Source: Erysipelothrix sp.
GTDB lineage: Bacteria > Bacillota_I > Bacilli_A > Erysipelotrichales > Erysipelotrichaceae
NCBI GenBank assembly: GCA_012735275.1
Contig: JAAYHR010000023.1
Coordinates: forward strand, 1-40,436
Length of the DNA: 40,436 nucleotides
Direction: 5' to 3'
The notes beneath the pieces are model-generated. The model searched no databases and had not been told where the DNA came from. It saw only the letters and a list, made by a program, of their open reading frames with translations. The translations under genes were made by a program, and so were the position numbers. Below, piece after piece: positions 566 through 30,375 of this stretch; positions within the stretch are counted from its first letter, which is position 1, and each line of letters opens with the position of its first letter.

Positions 566-1837
566 ATGACAAGTAATTTAAATAAAACTATTATTAAGCG
601 TAATGGTGCAATTACAGAGTTTATTCCATCGAAAATTACTAAAGCAATCGGATTAGCAGGTAAGCAAACCGGAGAATTTGACCTTGCACGTGCTGAGCTA
701 TTAACAAATGATGTTTTAGAAAAAATAAGTAAAGAAAATAATCAAGAACTTACTGTTGAAGGTGTTCAAGATCTAGTTGAGTTAGTCTTACTAGAGTCTG
801 AATTTAAATTAACAGCAAAAGCTTATATTTTATACCGTGCTGAGCGTACTTTAGCACGTAAACCAGATTTATTTAAGTTTAGATTAAACTTAAAACCATA
901 TGAATATCCTGAATTAGCTGAATATAAAGAAGCTATTCAACACTCATACTGGCTACATACTGAATTTAACTATACTTCAGATATTCAAGACTTTAAAGTA
1001 AACGTTTCTGAATCAGAGCGTAATGCGATTAAAAATGCGATGTTAGCAATTGCGCAAGTTGAAGTTGCGGTTAAAACATTCTGGGGCGACTTGTATAAAC
1101 GTATCCCTAAACCAGAAGTTGGCTCAGTTGGATTTACTTTTGCTGAATCAGAAGTAAGACACCAAGATGCTTATGCTCACTTATTAGAAATCTTAGGCTT
1201 AAATAGTGAGTTTGAAAGAATAAAAGATATTCCAGAATTAATGCAAAGAGTTAACTACTTAAATCAATCAGCAATTCTGGCACGTACAGAAGATAATCGT
1301 GACTACACATTATCAATATTATTATTCTCATTATTTATTGAACATGTTTCATTATTCTCACAATTCTTAATTATAATGTCATTTAATAAATATAAAAATA
1401 TCTTTAAGGGAATGTCAAATGCGATTGAAGCTACTTCAAAAGAAGAGCAAATCCATGGTTTATTTGGAATTGAATTAATCAATATTATTCGTGATGAACA
1501 TCCTGAATGGTTTGATGAAGATTTAGAAAAAACAGTCTTAGCTGCAGCTCAAGAAGCATATGCATCAGAAGAAGTAGTTATTGATTGGATCTTTGAACAA
1601 GGAGAACTAGATTTCTTACCAGTTCAAGTAGTAAAAGAGTTTGTGAAAAACAGATTGAATAATTCATTAGAAGATATTGGATATGCCCGTATCTTTGATG
1701 TCGATGATTCAATTGTTGAGCAAACAGATTGGTTTGATGATGAAGTTGTCGCAACAAAACACGTTGACTTCTTTGTAAAAAGATCAATTAACTATAGTAA
1801 GAGAACACAAAGTATTACTGGAGACGACTTATTTTAA
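566..1837 (+). CDS. nrdB: Class I ribonucleotide reductase radical subunit (NrdB) with N-terminal ATP-cone
   Basis: This is the radical-generating subunit that activates NrdA for reduction of ribonucleotides to deoxyribonucleotides. Residues 8-95 form an ATP-cone (KRNG at 11-14, then EFIPSKITKAI), a nucleotide-sensing domain normally found on NrdA. The ferritin-like body follows: likely metal ligands are E166, E196 and H199 (EVRH), E259, and E294 with H297 (EEQIH). Y203, four residues after H199, sits where the radical tyrosine is expected, so this looks like a tyrosyl-radical enzyme. At 423 residues it is longer than an ordinary NrdB because of the cone. The start follows an AAGGGGAG ribosome binding site. 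nrdA lies 18 bases downstream, so the two are one operon. ATP-cone fusions to NrdB are known in subclass NrdBi; assignment to that subclass is inference. Confidence 0.92.
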   Translation: MTSNLNKTIIKRNGAITEFIPSKITKAIGLAGKQTGEFDLARAELLTNDVLEKISKENNQELTVEGVQDLVELVLLESEFKLTAKAYILYRAERTLARKPDLFKFRLNLKPYEYPELAEYKEAIQHSYWLHTEFNYTSDIQDFKVNVSESERNAIKNAMLAIAQVEVAVKTFWGDLYKRIPKPEVGSVGFTFAESEVRHQDAYAHLLEILGLNSEFERIKDIPELMQRVNYLNQSAILARTEDNRDYTLSILLFSLFIEHVSLFSQFLIIMSFNKYKNIFKGMSNAIEATSKEEQIHGLFGIELINIIRDEHPEWFDEDLEKTVLAAAQEAYASEEVVIDWIFEQGELDFLPVQVVKEFVKNRLNNSLEDIGYARIFDVDDSIVEQTDWFDDEVVATKHVDFFVKRSINYSKRTQSITGDDLF

Positions 1838-1855
1838 TTAGAGGAGATAGATAAA

Positions 1856-3526
1856 ATGAAATGGTTAAACGAACATAGTAAATTATTCTTATCAAGAGGT
1901 TATTTAACTGAAGGTGTTACGGCTGAAGGTCGTGTTAGATTTATTGCAGATAAAGCAGAAGAAATCTTAGGAATTGAAGGTTTTGGCGATAAGTTCTATG
2001 GCTATATGTCAGAAGGATACTATTCATTGTCATCACCAATTTGGTCTAACTTTGGAATTGACAAGGGACTTCCAATCTCATGCTTTGGATCAAATCTTCC
2101 AGACCATATGGGTGGAATCTTATATACACAATCAGAAGTTGGAATGATGAGTAAATTTGGTGGCGGTACTTCAGGCTACTTCGGTCACTTAAGACCACGT
2201 GGTGCTGCGATTAAAGATAACGGAATCTCATCAGGTTCAGTTCACTTTATGAAATTATTTGAAACAATTATTGACGTTGTCTCACAAGGTTCAACAAGAC
2301 GTGGACGTTTTGCACCATACTTACCAGTTGAACACCCAGATATTGAAGAATTCTTAAACATCGGTACTGAGGGAGATCCAATTCAAGAATTAACACATGG
2401 TGTTACAGTAACGAACGATTGGATGAAAGCAATGGTTGCTGGAGACGCTGAGAAACGTGCTATCTGGGCTAAAATCATTCAAAGAAGAGTAGAAATTGGC
2501 TATCCATATATCTTCTTTAAAGACACAGTAAACAACAATACAGTTGATGTCTATAAAGACAAAGGATTAGAAATTACGCACTCAAACTTATGTTCAGAAA
2601 TTGCTCTTCCAGATAACGAAGAATGGTCATTTGTATGTAACTTATCATCAATGAATATTCTCCACTATGATAAATGGAAAGATACTGATGCAGTAGAAAC
2701 AATGGTTTACTTCCTAGATGCTGTTATGAGTGATTTCATTACTAAATTAGAAGCACTAAGAGACTCGGCTGATAAAGAAGATAACTTAGCATTCTACTTT
2801 ATGGAAAAAGCATACCAATTTGCAGTTGATAACCGTGCATTAGGTTTAGGCGCACTTGGATGGCACTCATACCTACAATCTAAAATGATTCCATTTGAAT
2901 CAATGGACGCATTTAAAATTAACGCTGAAGTATTTAGAACTATTCAAAATCGTGCACATGCTGCATCGAAAGACTTAGCAGAATTATTAGGTGAGCCAAA
3001 AGTATTAAAAGGATATGGTCGTAGAAATACAACATTAACAGCAATTGCTCCAACTACTTCATCATCATTTATTCTTGGTCAAGTATCACAGTCAATTGAA
3101 CCAATCTGGTCAAACAACTATGTTAAAGACGTTGCAAAAACTAAAATTACAATTAGAAACGTCTACTTAGAAGAAATTCTAGAAGAACGTGGAAAAAATA
3201 CACGTGATGTTTGGAACAATATCCGTGATAATGATGGATCTGTCCAACACCTTGATTTCTTAACTGATCATGAAAAAGAAGTATTTAAAACATTTAGTGA
3301 AATCGATCAATATGTTATCTTAGACCAAGCGTCAACAAGACAACAATTCCTAGATCAATCACAATCATTAAACATTATGGTTAATCCATCAATGTCAGCA
3401 AAAGAAATTAATGAGTTATACTTATTTGCATGGCAAAATAATATTAAATCATTATATTACCAACACTCAACAAATGCTGCACAACAGTTCTCAAAAGATA
3501 AACTTTGCGTAAACTGTGAAGCATAG
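1856..3526 (+). CDS. nrdA: Class I ribonucleotide reductase catalytic subunit (NrdA) lacking an ATP-cone
   Basis: This catalytic subunit reduces ribonucleotides using a thiyl radical delivered by NrdB. Visible active-site residues are C76 (PISCFGSN) and C261 (FVCNLSS) as the redox pair, and N244, C246 and E248 in NLCSE. Y534-Y535 is the radical-transfer tyrosine pair and C551-x-x-C554 is the C-terminal reducing tail. At 556 residues it is short: it begins directly with the catalytic domain and has no N-terminal ATP-cone, in keeping with the cone being on the partner gene upstream. The start follows GAGGAG. It ends just before a strong hairpin terminator. Codon use resembles its neighbours. 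Confidence 0.93.
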   Translation: MKWLNEHSKLFLSRGYLTEGVTAEGRVRFIADKAEEILGIEGFGDKFYGYMSEGYYSLSSPIWSNFGIDKGLPISCFGSNLPDHMGGILYTQSEVGMMSKFGGGTSGYFGHLRPRGAAIKDNGISSGSVHFMKLFETIIDVVSQGSTRRGRFAPYLPVEHPDIEEFLNIGTEGDPIQELTHGVTVTNDWMKAMVAGDAEKRAIWAKIIQRRVEIGYPYIFFKDTVNNNTVDVYKDKGLEITHSNLCSEIALPDNEEWSFVCNLSSMNILHYDKWKDTDAVETMVYFLDAVMSDFITKLEALRDSADKEDNLAFYFMEKAYQFAVDNRALGLGALGWHSYLQSKMIPFESMDAFKINAEVFRTIQNRAHAASKDLAELLGEPKVLKGYGRRNTTLTAIAPTTSSSFILGQVSQSIEPIWSNNYVKDVAKTKITIRNVYLEEILEERGKNTRDVWNNIRDNDGSVQHLDFLTDHEKEVFKTFSEIDQYVILDQASTRQQFLDQSQSLNIMVNPSMSAKEINELYLFAWQNNIKSLYYQHSTNAAQQFSKDKLCVNCEA

Positions 3527-3540
3527 ATAATAAACAAATT

Positions 3541-3564
3541 AAAAACATCCGCGAGGATGTTTTT
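3541..3564. terminator. Bidirectional intrinsic terminator between nrdA and the DUF4261 remnant
   Basis: The arms AAAAACATCC (3541-3550) and GGATGTTTTT (3555-3564) are perfectly complementary around a GCGA loop. T runs exist on both strands, so it can end nrdBA transcription and also transcription arriving from the minus-strand remnant. Confidence 0.85.
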
Positions 3565-4338
3565 AGTTTAAATATTTTATTTTAGTTGTATTGTGACCAA
3601 AGATTGGTGATGGTGAAATATTAGCTTGAATAATTCGACCATCGACTAAATCAACGCGCTCACCTTCAGAGAAGTTAACACCAAGGGTAATTAGTTCGGT
3701 AAATATATCTCTAATCGCATTAAATAGTTCCATTGGATCAAGAACTGAATCGATTACTTCAATTTCTAACTTACCAAAGTGATCTAATCCATAAGTATAA
3801 GCAGATAGTTCATCACGTTCATTATAATAAACACGAATATAAGCCTGCGTTAAGACCGGATAGACATTTTCTTTAATTCGATAAGCGGCATCACGATAGA
3901 AGATTGGATCATAAACTGTTCCAACAACTGAAATTCCGATTGCATTATCAAGTGATAGTGTCGAAGCATTAACTTGAGAATCGAGAATACTTGCATCAAC
4001 AGCACCTTTATCAGTCGGTAATACAACAACCGCCAGCTAGACTTTATGGTTAACTGCAACATCCATGGCATCTTCCCAAAAGAAATTGGTACTAGCGTAA
4101 TTTTCAATGGTTGTTTGATCAAATGGTTCAGCGACTAGTTTTACTGATACAACCATCCGATTTTTCTAAACATTAAGAAATCTTTATCATCGCTCTCATC
4201 ATGGATTGATAAGTTTCAATCGGCAACAAGATTCTTAATTAACTCGTTTTTATCAAAATCACTATTTTCTAATAATATAACACTATAAAATGGAACAGAC
4301 TCCCAAACTGGTAAATCAGTATGCTTTCTCTTGTACAC
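3563..4338 (-). pseudogene. Decayed DUF4261-domain protein
   Basis: This fills the roughly 900-base space between the two reductase loci. From a GTG at 4338 (preceded by AAGGGA) one frame reads LPVWESVPFYSVILLENSDF and so on to a TGA at 4216-4218, then NLSIHDESDDKDFLMF. Near 4158-4165 the reading must shift to another frame, which gives VSVKLVAEPFDQTTIENYAS.., WEDAMDVAVNH, a TAG at 4037-4039, then LAVVVLPTDKGAVDAS.., FYRDAAYRIKENVYPVLTQA, FGKLEIEVIDS and a TAA at 3563-3565. The order and motifs (W-E-A..H.A, a long helical middle, FGK.E.E.I.S, a final EGE.V) fit DUF4261 as I remember it. Two stops plus one shift make it non-functional under the standard code. The TGA falls where a Trp would be natural, suggesting TGG to TGA. 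Confidence 0.7.
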
Positions 4339-4367
4339 TTTGAAGATTCCCTTAATATACCACTCTC

Positions 4368-4446: not shown

Positions 4447-4470
4447 GAAAAAAGAACCCGAAGGTTCTTT
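4447..4470 (-). terminator. Intrinsic terminator after nrdJ
   Basis: On the minus strand AAAGAACC, a TTCG loop and GGTTCTTT are followed by more T residues. The stem directly abuts the nrdJ stop codon at 4471-4473. A UUCG loop is typical of stable terminators. Confidence 0.85.
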
Positions 4471-6978
4471 TTAAATATCACACTTTAATTGGGCATTACA
4501 GTTAGTACATGTATTACAGCCGCCGAGGTCTTCAACTTGTCCTTCAAGACAGATTGGACATAGGTTTCCAACTTCAACACCGATCTCACGATCAAGACGA
4601 TCCGATCTTAAATCAGTTTGTTTTGCTGGCTCTTGTACTTCAGCAACTGAAGCGCCAAAGTCTTTAACTAAGTCCAATTGATCCCAGTCATTTTCTTCTT
4701 TACTTAAGCTTAGTACTTGTGAGTCTCTTGAACCATCAACGTAAACAGTTCCACCCTTAGCACCATCTTTATATAGTCTTTCATAAATCTTTTGAACTTC
4801 TTCAACTGAGAAACCACGTGGAGCATTAACTGTTTTTGAAATCGATGAATCGATCCAATATTGAATCGTTGTTTGCACGTCCGCATGTTCTTCTGGAGAT
4901 AATTCCATTGCTGAAACGAAGTAGTCTGGTAATTCTTTACCACGGTATTCTGGGTTTAATTCTAACCATTCTTCAACGATTGCTGCATTAACTTCAATGA
5001 ACTTACCTAAACGTCCAGATCTGAAGTATGAGAATGAGAAGTATGGCTCAAGTCCAGTTGAGACACCTACCATTGTGCCGGTTGATCCTGTTGGAGCAAT
5101 TGTTAATAGATGTGAGTTTCTAATTCCGTGTTCTTTAATACGAGCTCTTAATCCTTCACTCAAGTGTTGAGTAAATCCTGTTTCTAAGAAGTCTTCGTTG
5201 TTTTCTAAGAATGGGAATGAACCTTTATCAATTGCGATATCGACAGATGCTGAGTATGCTGCTTCTGCGATTATTTTAAAGACATCATTAATAATATCGA
5301 TTGATTCTTTTGAACCGTAACGAACTTTTGACCAAATCAACATGTCATGTAGTCCCATTACTCCAAGTCCAACTCTTCTTTCGCCTAATGCTTGTTTCTT
5401 ATTAGCTTCTAGGAAGTATGGTGTTGAATCAATAACGTTATCTTGCATTCTAACTTGTAGTGCAACTGTGTTTGCGAGTTCATCGTGAAGGATTTCTCCC
5501 GTTTCCTTATTAACAAAGTTAGCTAAGTTAACTGCAGCTAGGTTACATACTGAGTATGGTGCTAGCGGTTGTTCACCACATGGATTTGTTGCTACAACTT
5601 TTTGACCGTATGATGTAGCGTTAGTCATCTTGTTAGCATTATCGATAAAGAAGATTCCTGGTTCTGCAGAGTATGTTGCACAGAATGAAATTAAATCCCA
5701 TAAGTCTTTAGCGTTAATTGTACGATGAACTTTTACAGGGTAGCCTAAACTTTCCCATTCTCTAACGTCACCAATTTCATGCCAGTGATTATCATAATAA
5801 GTTTTTTGTTCATCATTATAGTTTTCTAGATCTGGATAACGAAGTTCAAATTCAGAGTTATTTGCCACAGCTTCCATGAAGTCATCTGTAATAGTTACTG
5901 AGATGTTTGCTCCTGATAAGAATTCTGGATCATTAACATCAAGGATTCCACCATCAAGTAATTTATCTTTAGCATATTCTTTAATATCTTCATCAGCATC
6001 ACTCTTAACTAATGAATCATAAATATTGTACTCAGTTTGTGTTAAAGGAATAAATTTAAGTTTTTTGTTTGCTTGAATTCTTATTTCTTCATCTGGTGAA
6101 TTATCACCTAACCATTTTAATACTTTTGGATTTTGCATTTTTGAAATAATGAATTCTATAATATCTGGATGCCAGTCTGCCATCATAATCATTTGGGCAC
6201 CACGGCGTGATCCACCTTGTTCAACTAAGTGAGTTAGGTTAGCAATATCATTTAACCATGATACAGCACCAGATGATTTACCACCAACGCTTTTAGCCGG
6301 TGATGATTTTGGTCTTAGTGTTGATCCGTTAGTTCCAACACCGCCTCCACGTGACATAATTTCCATTACTTCTTTACGGTGATCAGCAATTCCGCCACGG
6401 CTATCTTCGATAAATGGCATAACGAAACAGTTGAAGTAAGTTACTTCTGATTCTGAACCAGCTCCGTATAATACACGTCCGGCTGGAATTGTATTAAGTT
6501 CTGCAATTTGCTCAGCAAATAATTCAGCGTATTTGTCTTTATCAGTTTGGCTAACTTCAACTTGTGCTAAAGCTTTACCAACACGTGCTGCGACTTGTTC
6601 AAAGTATAATTCTAGTGGTTTATCGATTTCTTTGATTTCACGAATAACAATACCTGTTTCTGATTCAGTTTTATCATCAAGTGTAGCTCTAAACTCGCTA
6701 TCAATTAATAATGTAACTTTCTCTTCATCTTCGTTAATTTCAATAACTCTTCCAACTCCACGTGCTGGATATTTAGGATCTTCTCTAATTACTGTTAATA
6801 CGATATCATCCACTTTTAAAGTTTTTAAGTCTAAGTCTTTTTGTGCATAACGATCAAGCATAACCAGACGGCTTACCCCTTCATAAGTTAATTTGTAATC
6901 AGCTTTTACTTCAGCTAAATGTGGGAAATGTTCTCGTAAATCTTTATTTAAATTGTCTATTGATGTTTGTGAGTACAT
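4471..6978 (-). CDS. nrdJ: Class II, adenosylcobalamin-dependent ribonucleotide reductase (NrdJ)
   Basis: This oxygen-independent reductase makes deoxynucleotides using a 5'-deoxyadenosyl radical from B12. C184 (YFNCFVMP) and C478 (YSVCNLAAVNL) are the redox pair; N465, C467 and E469 in NPCGEQ form the active-site loop; GSRRG at 256-260 and TIAPTGSTGTMVG are further conserved signatures. The C-terminus carries six cysteines, C807, C810, C821, C824, C827 and C833, in the zinc-ribbon-like tail usual for long NrdJ proteins. Length (835 residues) is in the family range. The start follows AAAGGA. It is the last gene of an operon, 15 bases after the S-component gene. It complements the O2-dependent enzyme encoded by the convergent nrdBA, so the cell should make dNTPs with or without oxygen if B12 can be obtained. 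Confidence 0.95.
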   Translation of the reverse strand: MYSQTSIDNLNKDLREHFPHLAEVKADYKLTYEGVSRLVMLDRYAQKDLDLKTLKVDDIVLTVIREDPKYPARGVGRVIEINEDEEKVTLLIDSEFRATLDDKTESETGIVIREIKEIDKPLELYFEQVAARVGKALAQVEVSQTDKDKYAELFAEQIAELNTIPAGRVLYGAGSESEVTYFNCFVMPFIEDSRGGIADHRKEVMEIMSRGGGVGTNGSTLRPKSSPAKSVGGKSSGAVSWLNDIANLTHLVEQGGSRRGAQMIMMADWHPDIIEFIISKMQNPKVLKWLGDNSPDEEIRIQANKKLKFIPLTQTEYNIYDSLVKSDADEDIKEYAKDKLLDGGILDVNDPEFLSGANISVTITDDFMEAVANNSEFELRYPDLENYNDEQKTYYDNHWHEIGDVREWESLGYPVKVHRTINAKDLWDLISFCATYSAEPGIFFIDNANKMTNATSYGQKVVATNPCGEQPLAPYSVCNLAAVNLANFVNKETGEILHDELANTVALQVRMQDNVIDSTPYFLEANKKQALGERRVGLGVMGLHDMLIWSKVRYGSKESIDIINDVFKIIAEAAYSASVDIAIDKGSFPFLENNEDFLETGFTQHLSEGLRARIKEHGIRNSHLLTIAPTGSTGTMVGVSTGLEPYFSFSYFRSGRLGKFIEVNAAIVEEWLELNPEYRGKELPDYFVSAMELSPEEHADVQTTIQYWIDSSISKTVNAPRGFSVEEVQKIYERLYKDGAKGGTVYVDGSRDSQVLSLSKEENDWDQLDLVKDFGASVAEVQEPAKQTDLRSDRLDREIGVEVGNLCPICLEGQVEDLGGCNTCTNCNAQLKCDI

Positions 6979-6993
6979 AGTTTAATTCCTTTC

Positions 6994-7479
6994 TTAATTA
7001 ATAATTTTCTCTAAACTATTCTTGATTGGCTTAAATAAAATAAGCACGGTTAAGTAGTTTGAGATCGCATGGATTATATCCCATGGTAATCCTCTTAGCC
7101 ACATGGCATAAAAGGTTTGTGGTCCATAAATTAGTATATTTACTAATGAGTCCACGGCTCCAAATGATAATCCGAAGATTGCGGCTGCGATTGCTAATGA
7201 GAGATTACTTGCATTAACTTTTTTAAGTAATCCACTGATTATGACTAATAATGGCCAGATAATAAAGTATGTTAATATCCACAAATGTGGTGGATAAATA
7301 AAGGCTTGGATTAGGGTAAATATTATTGCAATATAGATTGATCCCCTAACGCCCACAACATAAGTGTAGGCCATAATTAGTAGCGTCACAATTTCGACAT
7401 TTGGTAAAACACTAAGTAGCTCTTTCGAAACGATTAAGAGTGCACTTAAGAAGGCAGTTTGAATTAATCGGCTTCGCAT
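6994..7479 (-). CDS. ECF transporter S component, probably for cobalamin
   Basis: A small (161-residue) very hydrophobic protein with about six predicted membrane segments, the size and layout of an energy-coupling-factor substrate-binding S component. The first helix contains A-F-L-S-A, fitting the AxxxA motif used to dock on EcfT. I chose the ATG at 7479, one base after the DUF4430 stop codon; the longer reading from a TTG at 7524 would overlap that gene by 44 bases. No ribosome binding site stands directly before the ATG, so translation is probably coupled. EcfA and EcfT are not in the window and would have to be shared. The substrate is inferred from the neighbours: a DUF4430 protein before it and a B12-dependent enzyme after it, as for CbrT-type cobalamin S components. 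Another substrate cannot be excluded. Confidence 0.75.
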   Translation of the reverse strand: MRSRLIQTAFLSALLIVSKELLSVLPNVEIVTLLIMAYTYVVGVRGSIYIAIIFTLIQAFIYPPHLWILTYFIIWPLLVIISGLLKKVNASNLSLAIAAAIFGLSFGAVDSLVNILIYGPQTFYAMWLRGLPWDIIHAISNYLTVLILFKPIKNSLEKIIN

Positions 7480-7480
7480 T

Positions 7481-7912
7481 TTATGGTTTTGTGATAATAA
7501 AGTTAAATTGGTCTTTATCGTCAATAACTAATGCATCAATACCAGGGCAGAAGGCCTCAGCTAAACACATTTTATTATTTTCTGATTCATAAACCCAAAA
7601 TCCTGATCCATTATCAACATCTTCAATACTTTCAATATAGCGACCAAACTCAGAATCCTTATCACCTGATAAATTAAATTTTGCTTTATTTTCATTAAGT
7701 TCGTCAATTAATTCTCCTAAAGTTTCTGCATTTGTTTTTAGTTCTTCTTTAAAAACATTTTCTTCATCAATATTGAAAATTTCAAGTGTTACTGTTTTAT
7801 TTCCTTGATTACCACTTGGTTTATTTAGATTAGATACGAATAAGTATGCACCAACTAAGGCTAAAACTAATACGACTCTAATTAATATTGATTTTTTCAT
7901 ATTTCTATCCAT
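7481..7912 (-). CDS. Membrane-anchored DUF4430 protein, candidate cobalamin-capture protein
   Basis: After MDRNMKK there is one membrane segment (about residues 6-25), then a polar linker and an extracytoplasmic domain of about 115 residues. The end of the domain (GSGFWVYESENNK, CPGIDALVIDDKDQFNFII) resembles DUF4430, the fold shared with the C-terminal domain of transcobalamin and intrinsic factor. The N-terminus lacks a lipobox cysteine, so it is a signal-anchor protein and not a lipoprotein. The start at 7912 is placed 8 bases after GAAAGGA; the ATG at 7921 overlaps that site and is not usable. It is first in the operon with the S component and nrdJ. Two cysteines (CLAEAFC) could form a disulphide. 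Cobalamin binding is inference from fold and context. Confidence 0.72.
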   Translation of the reverse strand: MDRNMKKSILIRVVLVLALVGAYLFVSNLNKPSGNQGNKTVTLEIFNIDEENVFKEELKTNAETLGELIDELNENKAKFNLSGDKDSEFGRYIESIEDVDNGSGFWVYESENNKMCLAEAFCPGIDALVIDDKDQFNFIITKP

Positions 7913-7938
7913 TATATACATCCTTTCGCAGTATAGTA

Positions 7939-7947
7939 ATTATAGCA
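7939..7947 (-). promoter_or_regulatory. Extended -10 promoter of the DUF4430-S component-nrdJ operon
   Basis: On the minus strand TG (7947-7946), C, then TATAAT (7944-7939). No good -35 is present. The predicted start gives a leader of about 20 bases. No cobalamin-riboswitch signature was found between here and the next gene. Confidence 0.6.
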
Positions 7948-7966
7948 TAGATAAGAGACAGGAATA

Positions 7967-7996
7967 TTTTACTCTATAAGTTAAAAAAATAACTTA
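7967..7996. promoter_or_regulatory. Copy B of the 17-bp motif, extended into an inverted repeat
   Basis: TTTTACTCTATAAGTTA occupies 7967-7983. The last seven bases, TAAGTTA (7977-7983), are mirrored perfectly by TAACTTA (7990-7996) across six A residues, and the arms extend to CTRTAAGTTA with one mismatch. It lies between divergent promoters for the nrdJ operon and tmk. It is shaped like an operator for a dimeric regulator. Confidence 0.5.
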
Positions 7997-8096
7997 CAGG
8001 AAATAAATTACATATATTTTAGCTAAAAGGCTAATAAATCAGTGAAATAAGCAATATAATCTAGTCTCGATTTCCTCTTAAATAAGGCAACTAATA

Positions 8097-8105
8097 TGCT
8101 ATAAT
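8097..8105 (+). promoter_or_regulatory. Extended -10 promoter of tmk
   Basis: TG (8097-8098), C, TATAAT (8100-8105). A weak -35, CTTAAA, lies at 8077-8082. The predicted transcription start (about 8112) falls inside the AAGGTG ribosome binding site at 8111-8116, so the real start may be a little upstream or the leader is extremely short. Confidence 0.5.
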
Positions 8106-8121
8106 TGATTAAGGTGATTAT

Positions 8122-8754
8122 ATGCAAACAAAAGGATTATTTATTACATTCGAAGGACCGGATGGAAGTGGAAAAACAACAATATCTAAGCTAGTTTACG
8201 AAAAATTAAGTCAACTTGGCTATGATGCTTTATATACAAGAGAACCAGGTGGAATTGGGATTTCAGAATCAATTCGTGACATTATTTTAGATGTGAAAAA
8301 CGTTAATATGGATACTCGTACGGAAGCCCTATTATATGCAGCGAGTCGTCGTCAACATTTAGTTGAGAAAATCATTCCGGCAATCAATGCCAATAAAATT
8401 GTTATCTGTGATCGTTTTATTGACTCTTCTTTAGCTTACCAAGGTTTCGCAAGAAATATTGGGGTTGAAGAAGTATTACATATTAATGAGTTCGCGATTG
8501 AAGGTAGATTTCCTGATGTGACTTTATTCCTGGATATTTCGGCGCAAGAAGGACTAAATCGTATTGAAGGTCGTTCTTTTAAAGACCGTCTTGATTTAGA
8601 GTCTATTGATTTCCATAATCGTGTTTATGAAGGTTATCAGTTAGTCTTAAATAAATATAAGGACCGTATGGTTGTGATTGATGCGGAAAAATCTATTGAA
8701 GCAATCGTTGATGAAGCAGTTGAGGTAATTATTCAGGTTATGGCAAATGCTTAA
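8122..8754 (+). CDS. tmk: Thymidylate kinase
   Basis: Phosphorylates dTMP to dTDP in the cytoplasm. The P-loop GPDGSGKTT is at residues 13-21, the DRF motif in VICDRFIDSSLAYQG marks the catalytic and nucleotide-binding region, and the lid region follows (EGRSFKDRLDLE). Length 210 is typical. It starts the tmk-holB-ricT-rsmI cluster known from Bacillus, but with the darA, yaaR, yabA and yabB genes of that cluster missing. Its stop overlaps the holB start. It sits back to back with the reductase operon, so nucleotide supply genes are grouped. Confidence 0.95.
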   Translation: MQTKGLFITFEGPDGSGKTTISKLVYEKLSQLGYDALYTREPGGIGISESIRDIILDVKNVNMDTRTEALLYAASRRQHLVEKIIPAINANKIVICDRFIDSSLAYQGFARNIGVEEVLHINEFAIEGRFPDVTLFLDISAQEGLNRIEGRSFKDRLDLESIDFHNRVYEGYQLVLNKYKDRMVVIDAEKSIEAIVDEAVEVIIQVMANA

Positions 8755-26688: not shown

Positions 26689-26805
26689 ATGTTGATGATG
26701 ATAAATAACTATCCCCATAAGCTAAATCAAGATGATTTTTTCTTTGTTGCTATTGAGTTATTATCAAATTCACTTATAAATGAGGTCGATACTCATGAAG
26801 ATTAA
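26689..26805 (+). CDS. Small 38-residue protein coupled to the importer genes
   Basis: Not recognised. ATG follows a perfect GGAGG (26679-26683) at 5 bases. The product starts MLMMINNYPHKLNQ, continues with an aromatic/aliphatic stretch DDFFFVAIELLSNSLINE and ends in VDTHED. No signal peptide or full membrane helix is evident. Its stop TAA lies inside the permease gene, overlapping the ATG region by 11 bases, so the permease is likely translated by coupling. It could be a small regulatory protein or a leader peptide controlling importer translation. Confidence 0.55.
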   Translation: MLMMINNYPHKLNQDDFFFVAIELLSNSLINEVDTHED

Positions 26806-27751
26806 TCTAAAATATATTGTCCTAATAATTGTATTAGCATTTATTTCCTTAAGTATTGGCAATATGGAATTTTCATGGATTGATCTGATTAATCTGGATT
26901 CATCAGCTATTAATGTCTTTATTACCAGTCGTTTCCCGCGATTAGTAGCAGTATTGCTCACTGGTATCGGACTTAGTATAAGTGGGCTTATCTTACAACA
27001 GCTAGTAAGAAATAAGTTTGTCTCGCCGTCTACAACCGCTACGGCAAACTCAGCACGCTTAGGTATTATGGTTTCTCTAGTACTACTTCCACAGTTAACA
27101 ACAGTCACAAGATCGCTCTTCGCTTTTGCATTTGCACTGGCTGGAACGGGCTTGTTTGTTTGGATGATACAAAGAATTAAGTTGAAAGATGTTATTTTTA
27201 CTCCCCTAATCGGAATGATGTTGGGAACAGTGATTGACTCCATCACAACATTCTTAGCCTTACATTTTGATGTATTACAAGTCTTAAATGGCTATATGAT
27301 TGGTAGTTTTACACTGACAATCAAAGGTCGTTATGAGTTATTATATTTACTTATCCCAGTTATATTAATTACTTATGCTTATGCTCGCTATTTCAATATT
27401 GCGGCCTTAGGCGAGGACTATGCTTCAAACTTAGGTTTGAATTATAAGAAAATTCTAGTGGTCGGGATTATGATTGTTTCACTTAATAGTGCAGTAATCA
27501 TTTCAACAATTGGCAATATAGCCTTTGTTGGATTAATAATCCCTAACCTTGTATCGATTCGCTATGGTGATAAAATTGATTCAACTATAACGATTACAGC
27601 TCTCATGGGAAGTATCTTCTTATTGGCAGCTGATATCATATCTAGATTAATTATTTATCCTTATGAAATTCCAATTTCATTAACTGTTGGTGTTATTGGG
27701 TCAATCATATTCTTAATATTAATATTAAGGAGAAATAAAAATGAAAAATAA
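26795..27751 (+). CDS. Iron-siderophore ABC transporter permease (FecCD family, YclN-like)
   Basis: An integral membrane protein with about nine or ten hydrophobic helices; the family forms the channel for ferric-siderophore, haem or B12 import. Recognisable parts are RFPRLVAVLLTGIGLSISG near the N-terminus, the G-E-D-Y-A-x-N-L-G cytoplasmic coupling loop (LGEDYASNLGL), and FVGLIIPNLV. I chose the ATG at 26795, 9 bases after GAGG; an in-frame ATG at 26780 lacks spacing. First of two permeases, overlapping the next gene by 11 bases. Gene order permease-permease-ATPase-binding protein matches Bacillus yclNOPQ. Confidence 0.88.
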   Translation: MKINLKYIVLIIVLAFISLSIGNMEFSWIDLINLDSSAINVFITSRFPRLVAVLLTGIGLSISGLILQQLVRNKFVSPSTTATANSARLGIMVSLVLLPQLTTVTRSLFAFAFALAGTGLFVWMIQRIKLKDVIFTPLIGMMLGTVIDSITTFLALHFDVLQVLNGYMIGSFTLTIKGRYELLYLLIPVILITYAYARYFNIAALGEDYASNLGLNYKKILVVGIMIVSLNSAVIISTIGNIAFVGLIIPNLVSIRYGDKIDSTITITALMGSIFLLAADIISRLIIYPYEIPISLTVGVIGSIIFLILILRRNKNEK

Positions 27752-28688
27752 AACTAGATATAATTTATTAATAATATTAGTCATAAGTGTTTGTCTCTTG
27801 TATGTCTTTTATGGCATGACTGGAAATAATGCTAGTTATTTATTCTATCGTCGCATACCGCGGCTACTAGCAATGATCCTAGTTTCGATTGCCATAACAA
27901 TTTCGACATCAATCTTTCAAACAATAACTAATAATCGTTTATTAACTCCTGACTTATTAGGTTATAGTCAGTTATATATATTACTACAGACATTTATTGT
28001 CTTTGCTTTTGGTGGACTACATCTTTTAAATATTAATCCATATTTAAATTTTATTGCGATTACTGTCTTAATGGTAATGTTCTCGCTAGTGATATTCTCT
28101 TATATTCTAAAGAAGTCTAATCACTATGTTTATCTCTTATTGTTAATTGGAATGATCTTGAATACACTGTTTTCTAGTATCTCATCATTTCTACAAATGG
28201 TAATTGATCCAAATGAATTCTCAATTATTCAAAACAATGTTATAGCAAGTTTCAATACTATTAATACTAATGTTATTTATATCGCAGTTTTAATTCTCTT
28301 ATTACCACTACCTTGGGTAATAAAAAACTTACATAATTTTGATGTCTTACTACTCGGTGAAGATTATGCCAAAAACTTATCAGTGGATACTAATAAGTTA
28401 TATACATCATCATTAATCGTCATTTCAATATTAACTAGCTTATCAACAGCCTTAGTTGGCCCAATTGTTTTTCTTGGAATGTTAGTTGTCAATATAGCGC
28501 GTATCTGGAGTAAATCTTATCAGCATAAGGAATTTATTAAAACAGCTATATGTTTATCGATTATTTTAACTGTCGGTGGTCAGTTTATAATTGATAAGGT
28601 CTTCAATTTCTCTGTGACTTTGTCGGTACTATTAAACTTGATCGGTGGCCTATACATGATTTATCTAATTATGAAGGAGCGAACATAA
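27741..28688 (+). CDS. Iron-siderophore ABC transporter permease (FecCD family, YclO-like)
   Basis: The second membrane subunit, 315 residues, with many hydrophobic helices, RRIPRLLAMILVSIAITIST near the start, the coupling loop LLGEDYAKNLSVD and GPIVFLGMLVVNIAR. It pairs as a heterodimer with the preceding permease. The start follows AAGGAGA. It overlaps the ATPase gene by one base (TAATG). Confidence 0.88.
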   Translation: MKNKTRYNLLIILVISVCLLYVFYGMTGNNASYLFYRRIPRLLAMILVSIAITISTSIFQTITNNRLLTPDLLGYSQLYILLQTFIVFAFGGLHLLNINPYLNFIAITVLMVMFSLVIFSYILKKSNHYVYLLLLIGMILNTLFSSISSFLQMVIDPNEFSIIQNNVIASFNTINTNVIYIAVLILLLPLPWVIKNLHNFDVLLLGEDYAKNLSVDTNKLYTSSLIVISILTSLSTALVGPIVFLGMLVVNIARIWSKSYQHKEFIKTAICLSIILTVGGQFIIDKVFNFSVTLSVLLNLIGGLYMIYLIMKERT

Positions 28689-29443
28689 TGATAGAAATCA
28701 GGAATCTGAGTAAGTCTTATGGAAGTGTTAAAGTATTAGAAGATATTAATCTTAAAATTAAACCAGGATCTTTTAATATGATAGTTGGCGGTAATGGAGC
28801 GGGAAAATCAACTTTAGTTAATATTGTTGGTAGTCTCTTAGATCGTGACTCGGGTGAAGTTATTTTAGATGGTAAGGAAGTAAGTGAGTATTCACGTGAT
28901 GAGCGTGCCCAAAAGATTTCCATCCTAAAACAAAATAATAATATTGATTTAAATATTACGGTAAGAGATTTAGTAGGCTTTGGTCGTTTCCCTTACAGTA
29001 AAGGTCGTTTAAATAAAACTGATTTAGATATAATAAATCAAAGCTTAGTCTCAACGCAAACGCTTGAGTATGCTGATCGAGAAATATCTAAATTGTCAGG
29101 TGGTCAAAGACAAAGAGCCTTTCTGGCCATGATCCTAGCCCAAAAGACTGATGTAATTTTATTAGATGAACCTTTAGCAAGTCTCGATTTAAAACACTCA
29201 GTAGATTTTGTGAATATGTTAAAGCAGATATGTTTAGAAGAAAATAAAACAGTAGTAATGATTGTCCATGATTTAAATGTTGCGGCGATGGCAGCTGATC
29301 AAATTATTGCCCTCAAGAATGGGAAACTCCAAGCCTGTGGCTGTGTTGATGATGTTATATCAAAAGACTGCCTCTATGATATCTTTGGAGTCGAATTTGA
29401 AGTTGAAAGTTTTGGCGACCGTAACGTTTGCTTTATAAAATAG
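28688..29443 (+). CDS. Iron-siderophore ABC transporter ATPase (FecE/YclP-like)
   Basis: The nucleotide-binding subunit. Walker A GGNGAGKST, the signature LSGGQRQR, Walker B VILLDEPLASLD and the H-loop IVHDLN are all present. 251 residues is normal. The sequence between Q-loop and signature (LVGFGRFPYSKGRLNKTD) is typical for siderophore-class ATPases. Confidence 0.95.
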   Translation: MIEIRNLSKSYGSVKVLEDINLKIKPGSFNMIVGGNGAGKSTLVNIVGSLLDRDSGEVILDGKEVSEYSRDERAQKISILKQNNNIDLNITVRDLVGFGRFPYSKGRLNKTDLDIINQSLVSTQTLEYADREISKLSGGQRQRAFLAMILAQKTDVILLDEPLASLDLKHSVDFVNMLKQICLEENKTVVMIVHDLNVAAMAADQIIALKNGKLQACGCVDDVISKDCLYDIFGVEFEVESFGDRNVCFIK

Positions 29444-29451
29444 GAGAGAAT

Positions 29452-30375
29452 ATGAAAAAAATACTATTATTAATTGCTTTACTAGTTTTAGTTGGCTGTA
29501 GCCCAACAAGCGTTGAAGAAGAAAACACAACAAGTATTCCCATTAAACATGCCCTTGGCGAAACTGATGTAAAAGAAAATCCAGAAAAAGTAGTTATCTT
29601 TGATCTTGGTGTACTAGATATCTTTGATGCCTTAGATATTGAAGTAGCCGGCGTTCCAAAATCAAACTTATCAGCGCGTTTAGAAAAATATAATCATGAT
29701 GATTATGTCAGTGCTGGAACATTGTTTGAACCAGATTACGAAGTCCTAGCAGAAATGGCACCTGATTTAATTATCATATCAGGTCGTGCTGCTGGCGAGT
29801 ATGATGAGTTATCAAAGATTGCTCCAACCATTGCCCTGACAATTGATAATAGTGACTTTATTGGCTCACTAATTAATCGCTTAGAAACGGTTGGAAGTTT
29901 ATATCCAGCTAAAGTTGATTTAATCGAAACTGAAATTTCAAATATTAGCGAAAGTGTTAAAGATATTAAAGCAGAAGTTGAAAAACATGATGAGCAAACG
30001 CTATTTATTTTAACGAACGGTGACTCAATGTCGATTTATGGTCCGGGATCAAGATTTGGAATTGTTTATGATGATCTTGGCTTTAAAGCAATTGATGGTG
30101 TCACTTATGACACTTCAACACATGGTCAACAAATTTCATTTGAGTTTATTGCCCAGTATAATCCAGATAACATTATCGTAATGGATCGTGTTGTAATTAC
30201 TGGTGATCAAGCACCACCTGCCAGTGATCTATTAAATAATGATTTAATTAAAGATGTTAATGCTTTTAAAAACAATAAAGTATTCTATGTTGATCCCCAT
30301 GTTTGGTATGTTGAAACAGGTGGATTAAACTCAACTAAACATATGATAGAAGAAATGGATTCTATCTATAAGTAA
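29452..30375 (+). CDS. Siderophore-binding lipoprotein (YclQ/CeuE/FatB-like)
   Basis: The cell-surface receptor of the importer. The signal peptide ends in LVGC with lipidation at C16. The mature part has the two-lobed periplasmic-binding type III fold: HALGETDVKENPEKVVIFD, EPDYEVLAEMAPDLIIISGR, KIAPTIALTID and YGPGSRFGIVYDDLGFK. This pattern is closest in my recognition to YclQ (petrobactin) and CeuE, which bind catecholate ferric complexes. The ATG at 29452 follows AGGAGAG; a TTG at 29428 would overlap the ATPase gene. No siderophore biosynthesis genes are in the window, so use of foreign siderophores is likely. Confidence 0.9.
   Translation: MKKILLLIALLVLVGCSPTSVEEENTTSIPIKHALGETDVKENPEKVVIFDLGVLDIFDALDIEVAGVPKSNLSARLEKYNHDDYVSAGTLFEPDYEVLAEMAPDLIIISGRAAGEYDELSKIAPTIALTIDNSDFIGSLINRLETVGSLYPAKVDLIETEISNISESVKDIKAEVEKHDEQTLFILTNGDSMSIYGPGSRFGIVYDDLGFKAIDGVTYDTSTHGQQISFEFIAQYNPDNIIVMDRVVITGDQAPPASDLLNNDLIKDVNAFKNNKVFYVDPHVWYVETGGLNSTKHMIEEMDSIYK

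Follow-up and report, generated by a model that had tools for sequence, protein, structure and literature searches.

The stretch of DNA analysed here, called the window, is the whole 40,436-nucleotide contig JAAYHR010000023.1 of Erysipelothrix sp. (GenBank assembly GCA_012735275.1). Three consecutive genes lie on its minus strand: a cbrS-like gene (7481..7912) encoding a DUF4430-like protein of 143 amino acids (aa), a cbrT-like gene (6994..7479) encoding a predicted S component of an energy-coupling factor (ECF) transporter, and nrdJ (4471..6978), encoding an adenosylcobalamin-dependent (class II) ribonucleotide reductase of 835 aa. An earlier note on this DNA had described three coupled genes at 4471-7912 and proposed that they bring in vitamin B12 for NrdJ; the coordinates were right, and all three genes are present on the minus strand. 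The DUF4430-like gene starts with an ATG at position 7912, with an AAAGG ribosome-binding site 5' of it. The S-component open reading frame (ORF), as listed, covers 6994-7524 and starts with a TTG at 7524, but the true start is likely to be the ATG at 7479, one base past the stop of the DUF4430 gene, which would yield a protein of 161 aa. The intergenic gaps are 1 base (DUF4430/S) and 15 bases (S/nrdJ). A terminator-like hairpin on the same strand (4449..4472, a 10-pair stem and then a T-rich tail) lies 3' of nrdJ and closes the unit. These short gaps, together with a single hairpin after nrdJ, are consistent with one transcript. On the other side, the leader or promoter region (7913..8121, minus strand) separates the operon from a divergent dTMP kinase gene; in relatives, this is the site of a cobalamin riboswitch.

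The product of nrdJ scored 1319 bits against NF005991 (vitamin B12-dependent ribonucleotide reductase, cut-off 854) and 565.6 bits against TIGR02504 (cut-off 399.95), and contains the motifs NPCGEQ and SVCNL as well as C-terminal cysteine motifs. NrdJ requires adenosylcobalamin. Comparisons were made among the 60 nearest genomes, three of which represent the genus of the window (G000, G001 and G002, 66 to 94% complete). Full-length NrdJ homologues were found in nine other relatives, at 69 to 83% identity; among the three species of the genus, identity is 79 to 83%. A B12-binding-domain radical SAM protein (G000:C2:39226-39540, L067) was the only other predicted cobalamin-binding protein in a PF02310 search of the genome.

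For the S component, a phmmer search of the PDB returned a sole significant match, 6fnp_A (E = 3.4e-6, residues 18-172 of the long ORF). This entry is the CbrT chain of the vitamin B12 transporter of Lactobacillus delbrueckii, an S component experimentally proven to act on B12 (PMC5997447). The two proteins are about 25% identical and have the motifs PNVxxVT and GLxxDxxHxxxN in common. A match of our profile A2 to 6fnp was discarded as circular, because A2 contains the L. delbrueckii CbrT. The structure model (predicted local distance difference test, pLDDT, 81.6) has six helices, and Foldseek matched it to the ECF S subunit 4huq_S with a template modelling (TM) score of 0.72 and a probability of 1.00, at weak E-values (0.23). 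The fold is common to S components of differing specificity, and structurally the model came closest to this generic S subunit and to the riboflavin S component RibU, so that a protein carrying another vitamin or cofactor (riboflavin, heme or another corrinoid-like ligand), placed next to nrdJ by accident, has to be considered. We regard this as very improbable, since by sequence nothing but CbrT matched significantly, and the neighbours and riboswitches of relatives are all B12-related. EcfA, EcfA' and EcfT are encoded together in one operon on another contig of the same genome (G000:C3), and further S-component candidates are present in this genome; a shared module located away from its S component is the arrangement of group II ECF transporters.

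The genomic context in relatives bears directly on the substrate. DUF4430-like matches were detected in 18 of the 60 genomes, with the S component as immediate neighbour in 17; in the eighteenth, G053, a different, clear DUF4430 gene adjoins its CbrT. Two more genomes (G003 and G005), in addition to the 18 of the first search, encode a divergent DUF4430 protein next to the S component. The cobalamin riboswitch (RF00174) was present in 12 of the 30 genomes searched, and in 10 of these 12 it immediately precedes the DUF4430/S operon and has the same orientation (G003, G007, G009, G016, G027, G028, G032, G035, G053 and G057). Four genomes (G007, G009, G027 and G035) have the order riboswitch, DUF4430, S component, PduO adenosyltransferase, NrdJ. 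Their operons have the gene families and gene order of the window, and differ from it by the presence of the riboswitch and of PduO, and by a G instead of a P in loop 3 of the S component. This context argues, with good confidence, that the substrate is cobalamin, and together with the homology to CbrT it leads us to predict that the S component of the window is of the cobalamin type. The earlier note had allowed that such S components might turn out to be tied to another vitamin; the CbrT homology and the cobalamin riboswitches and adenosyltransferases of relatives favour B12, and its proposal of B12 uptake serving NrdJ is likewise supported. Association with the reductase itself points the same way: 10 of the 60 genomes encode an NrdJ of the window type, and DUF4430 is found in 9 of these 10 compared to 9 of the 50 others (Fisher P = 2.8e-5), or in 6 of 7 compared to 9 of 50 when the genus itself is left out (P = 8e-4), P values that are optimistic because the genomes are related.

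Two other arrangements were encountered in this survey. In G053 (L036:4007-6525), a cobalamin riboswitch precedes three adjacent genes, which encode in this order an alpha/alpha-toroid protein (weak PF00432 match), a DUF4430 protein and CbrT; the toroid and DUF4430 pair resembles transcobalamin with its alpha and beta domains split into separate proteins. A second S-component subfamily, with an LYLE...T motif and no D-H-N motif, was seen in L026-L031 and L033 (genomes G021, G028, G026, G031, G016, G032 and G012), where it pairs with DUF4430-like lipoproteins or anchored proteins; a diverged adenosyltransferase accompanies it in G016, G031 and G032, and a cobalamin riboswitch in G016, G028 and G032.

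The first gene of the operon encodes a single-pass, outward-facing protein, in which a lone hydrophobic segment (residues 8-26) precedes the domain outside the membrane; a lipobox was looked for in this protein and none was found. A profile built on 14 relatives, with no lactobacillar CbrS inside, matched the DUF4430-type structure 3u7z of Ruminococcus gnavus (E = 7.6e-10). Aligned by hhalign, the family profile matched lactobacillar CbrS with 75% probability (E = 2.5e-5), and a profile including lactobacillar CbrS matched gastric intrinsic factor (5.8e-6) and transcobalamin-1 (1.7e-4). These matches support the assignment of the window protein to a DUF4430, transcobalamin-related family, resembling the transcobalamin beta domain, as the earlier note had proposed. 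Its anchor and the position of its gene immediately 5' of cbrT are, in addition, features by which CbrS is recognised. Foldseek run with a model of the domain ranked 3u7z at the top of the PDB entries and 5np4, the transcobalamin beta domain with bound cobalamin, in fourth place, a result that is suggestive only, the model being poor. Viral contigs were searched for DUF4430 homologues, and none was found. Comparison with transcobalamin and intrinsic factor (PDB 5np4 and 2pmv) shows a DUF4430-type domain on the extracellular side in both cases, but those proteins join an alpha/alpha-toroid and a beta domain in one cobalamin binder, whereas the operon of the window encodes the beta-type domain only, the protein is membrane-anchored, and its corrinoid binding is putative. 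The beta domain of human transcobalamin binds cobalamin on its own, with lowered affinity (PMC5599065).

A cluster nrdJ-cbrS-cbrT-pduO has been described in L. delbrueckii (PMC5997447), and CbrS, as read from lactobacillar DNA, is a DUF4430 protein. The expectation of the earlier note that an anchored DUF4430 protein beside an S component would be a distinct uptake design was therefore not borne out. In both cases a B12-dependent reductase, a DUF4430 CbrS and CbrT are clustered, the shared ECF module is encoded elsewhere and BtuCDF is not needed. BtuCDF is comparable in function, B12 import aided by an external binding protein, but its proteins are unrelated. The window differs from the L. delbrueckii cluster in that PduO is missing, the order is DUF4430-S-NrdJ, and its NrdJ is of the NF005991 type, whereas the L. 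delbrueckii reductase is of the monomeric RTPR type. The DUF4430 proteins differ as well. Lactobacillar CbrS (L061, L063, L064 and L066), encoded directly upstream of cbrT and scoring 66 to 74 bits for the DUF4430 domain, has a signal peptide or lipobox, whereas the anchor in the window is a transmembrane segment; and the window subfamily has an additional segment (NNKMCLAEAFC in the window protein) whose two cysteines are invariant in 14 relatives, and no such segment is present in lactobacillar CbrS. L061 carries an intact cbrS; in L062, the type-strain scaffold of L. delbrueckii, the gene looks disrupted. L061 itself is labelled Faecalicatena absiana, and has the same cluster, in which CbrT shares 98% identity with the L. 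delbrueckii protein; this contig is probably a contamination or a mislabelling. In an uncultured Lactobacillus (L064:5176-5839), two tandem cbrS-like genes precede cbrT, the second being broken by a stop.

We conclude that the three genes most probably form a CbrS-CbrT-type cobalamin uptake module cotranscribed with its consumer NrdJ, in which the anchored DUF4430 domain may capture corrinoid, and we give this reading a probability of about 0.78. Its parts differ in strength. Homology and genomic context give good support to B12 specificity and to the operon. Corrinoid capture by the DUF4430 domain, as an accessory function not strictly needed for transport by CbrT, is only somewhat favoured, by analogy with transcobalamin. 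In such a scheme, the anchored domain outside the membrane would bind corrinoid loosely, like the isolated beta domain of transcobalamin, and would raise the local corrinoid concentration at the S component; CbrT would then bind the vitamin and join the shared motor (EcfA, EcfA' and EcfT), whose genes lie at another site of the genome, so that cobalamin would be delivered inside for NrdJ.

Several observations weigh against this reading. The DUF4430 family model PF14478 gives the window protein only 14.3 bits, under the Pfam gathering cut-off of 23.8, which reflects a divergent sequence; the proteins of the genus relatives are likewise sub-threshold or unmatched, and a PF14478 search of the genome itself did not find the gene, owing to this divergence. 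The AlphaFold model of the domain, with a pLDDT of 48.3, is of low quality. The relatedness of the genomes softens the co-occurrence with NrdJ, and NrdJ lacks a detectable adenosyltransferase in this genus, as described below. Finally, CbrT and the ECF module restored B12-dependent growth of E. coli without CbrS, and also transported B12 in vitro, with a KM of about 2 nM (PMC5997447). Since CbrT transports without CbrS, the DUF4430 protein is accessory at most in L. delbrueckii, and may have another role; an obligatory hand-over of cobalamin from the DUF4430 partner to the S component, as imagined in the earlier note, is not supported. No function for CbrS, or for DUF4430 proteins adjoining ECF S components, was found in the open-licence PMC literature.

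The activity of CbrT without CbrS lends some weight to another explanation, in which the DUF4430 protein would be a structural partner of CbrT (an aid to stability, folding or docking), or would have a metal or some other small molecule as its ligand. Among solved DUF4430 structures the nearest is 3u7z, annotated as a putative metal-binding protein, and the two-cysteine segment, not being found in lactobacillar CbrS, indicates that the domain surface differs. However, the fold relatives of known function, intrinsic factor and transcobalamin, bind cobalamin, DUF4430 genes and CbrT sit under cobalamin riboswitches in relatives, and the gene pair of L036 matches the two domains of transcobalamin. 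We therefore consider a structural or metal-binding role a possible but clearly less probable explanation than corrinoid capture.

The genus of the window departs from its relatives in the control of the operon. The earlier note had seen no cobalamin riboswitch, and Rfam searches agree: RF00174 had no match in the window, none in positions 7400-8400 even at E <= 10, none genome-wide and none in the operon leaders of the genus relatives. The possibility that a riboswitch was missed through the choice of threshold was rejected on these results. Among the three genus members the operon leaders are hard to align, with a mean column identity of 56%. Control through NrdR boxes was also rejected, as a 16-base NrdR-like pattern occurred 9 times compared to 14.3 expected, and never at the operon leader. 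Because close relatives do have the riboswitch, its absence points to a lineage-specific loss.

The adenosyltransferase is missing as well. PduO lies beside NrdJ in all seven other NrdJ-carrying relatives (G007, G009, G022, G027, G028, G032 and G035), whereas neither PduO/EutT (PF01923) nor CobA (PF02572) was detected in the three genomes of the genus (66 to 94% complete); as both families were searched, an enzyme hidden by the choice of family was rejected as the reason. The S gene runs almost straight into nrdJ in the genus, which means that the PduO slot is empty and not unsequenced. The sequences thus indicate that both the upstream cobalamin riboswitch and the operon PduO have been lost in this genus. 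One may ask whether the whole module is decaying in a reduced genome, these losses marking an exit from the NrdJ pathway with a class I reductase next door as backup. A small genome (1.07 Mb), the failure to find an adenosyltransferase and the nearby NrdA and NrdB would fit such decay. On the other hand, DUF4430, CbrT and NrdJ are retained in all three sampled genomes, the three genes are intact in the three species, NrdJ is conserved at the level given above, and gene order is preserved along with the motifs, so that decay appears improbable.

The requirement of NrdJ for adenosylcobalamin, with no adenosyltransferase found, implies that the coenzyme is either supplied from the surroundings or made by an enzyme not recognised as such. 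When 22 S components were aligned, a single column was invariant outside the genus (G, 19/19) yet fixed otherwise inside it (P, 3/3). This residue, P63, is placed by the model in loop 3, between helices 3 and 4. For CbrT, loops 1 and 3 have been described as gates that probably contact the variable axial ligand, and adenosylcobalamin was reported to be a weaker competitor than the other cobalamin forms (PMC5997447). It is possible, although less likely than not, that the genus stopped making adenosylcobalamin, and that the transmembrane-anchored, two-cysteine DUF4430 protein and the CbrT altered in loop 3 (G to P) import the finished coenzyme for NrdJ, without riboswitch control. The link between loop 3 and coenzyme import is a hypothesis drawn from one clade, and hence from one evolutionary event.

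Elsewhere in the window, a class I ribonucleotide reductase is encoded at 566-3526, with an NrdB carrying an N-terminal ATP cone and an NrdA of the NrdE-prime type; the cell is thus predicted to have oxygen-dependent and B12-dependent reductases encoded close together. Between nrdA and nrdJ, no intact gene is present in 3560-4360; the broken frames there, and an ORF of 90 aa on the minus strand, suggest gene decay. Farther along, 26780-30375 contains two FecCD permeases (26780-28688), an ATPase and an SstD-like binding protein, and is probably a catechol siderophore importer; assignment to BtuCDF was rejected, because the FecCD pair goes with the SstD-like siderophore binding protein.

What remains of interest is the role of CbrS and its DUF4430 domain, and a genus that has lost both riboswitch and adenosyltransferase. 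In widely differing low-GC Gram-positive genomes CbrS is conserved as a neighbour of CbrT, and its context, with riboswitch, adenosyltransferase, NrdJ and a split alpha/beta pair, makes the capture of corrinoids by a bacterial transcobalamin-like domain directly testable. In this genus, where no adenosyltransferase was found, nature provides a test of whether intact coenzyme B12 can be brought in by an ECF importer, and loop 3 of CbrT offers a single residue to probe.

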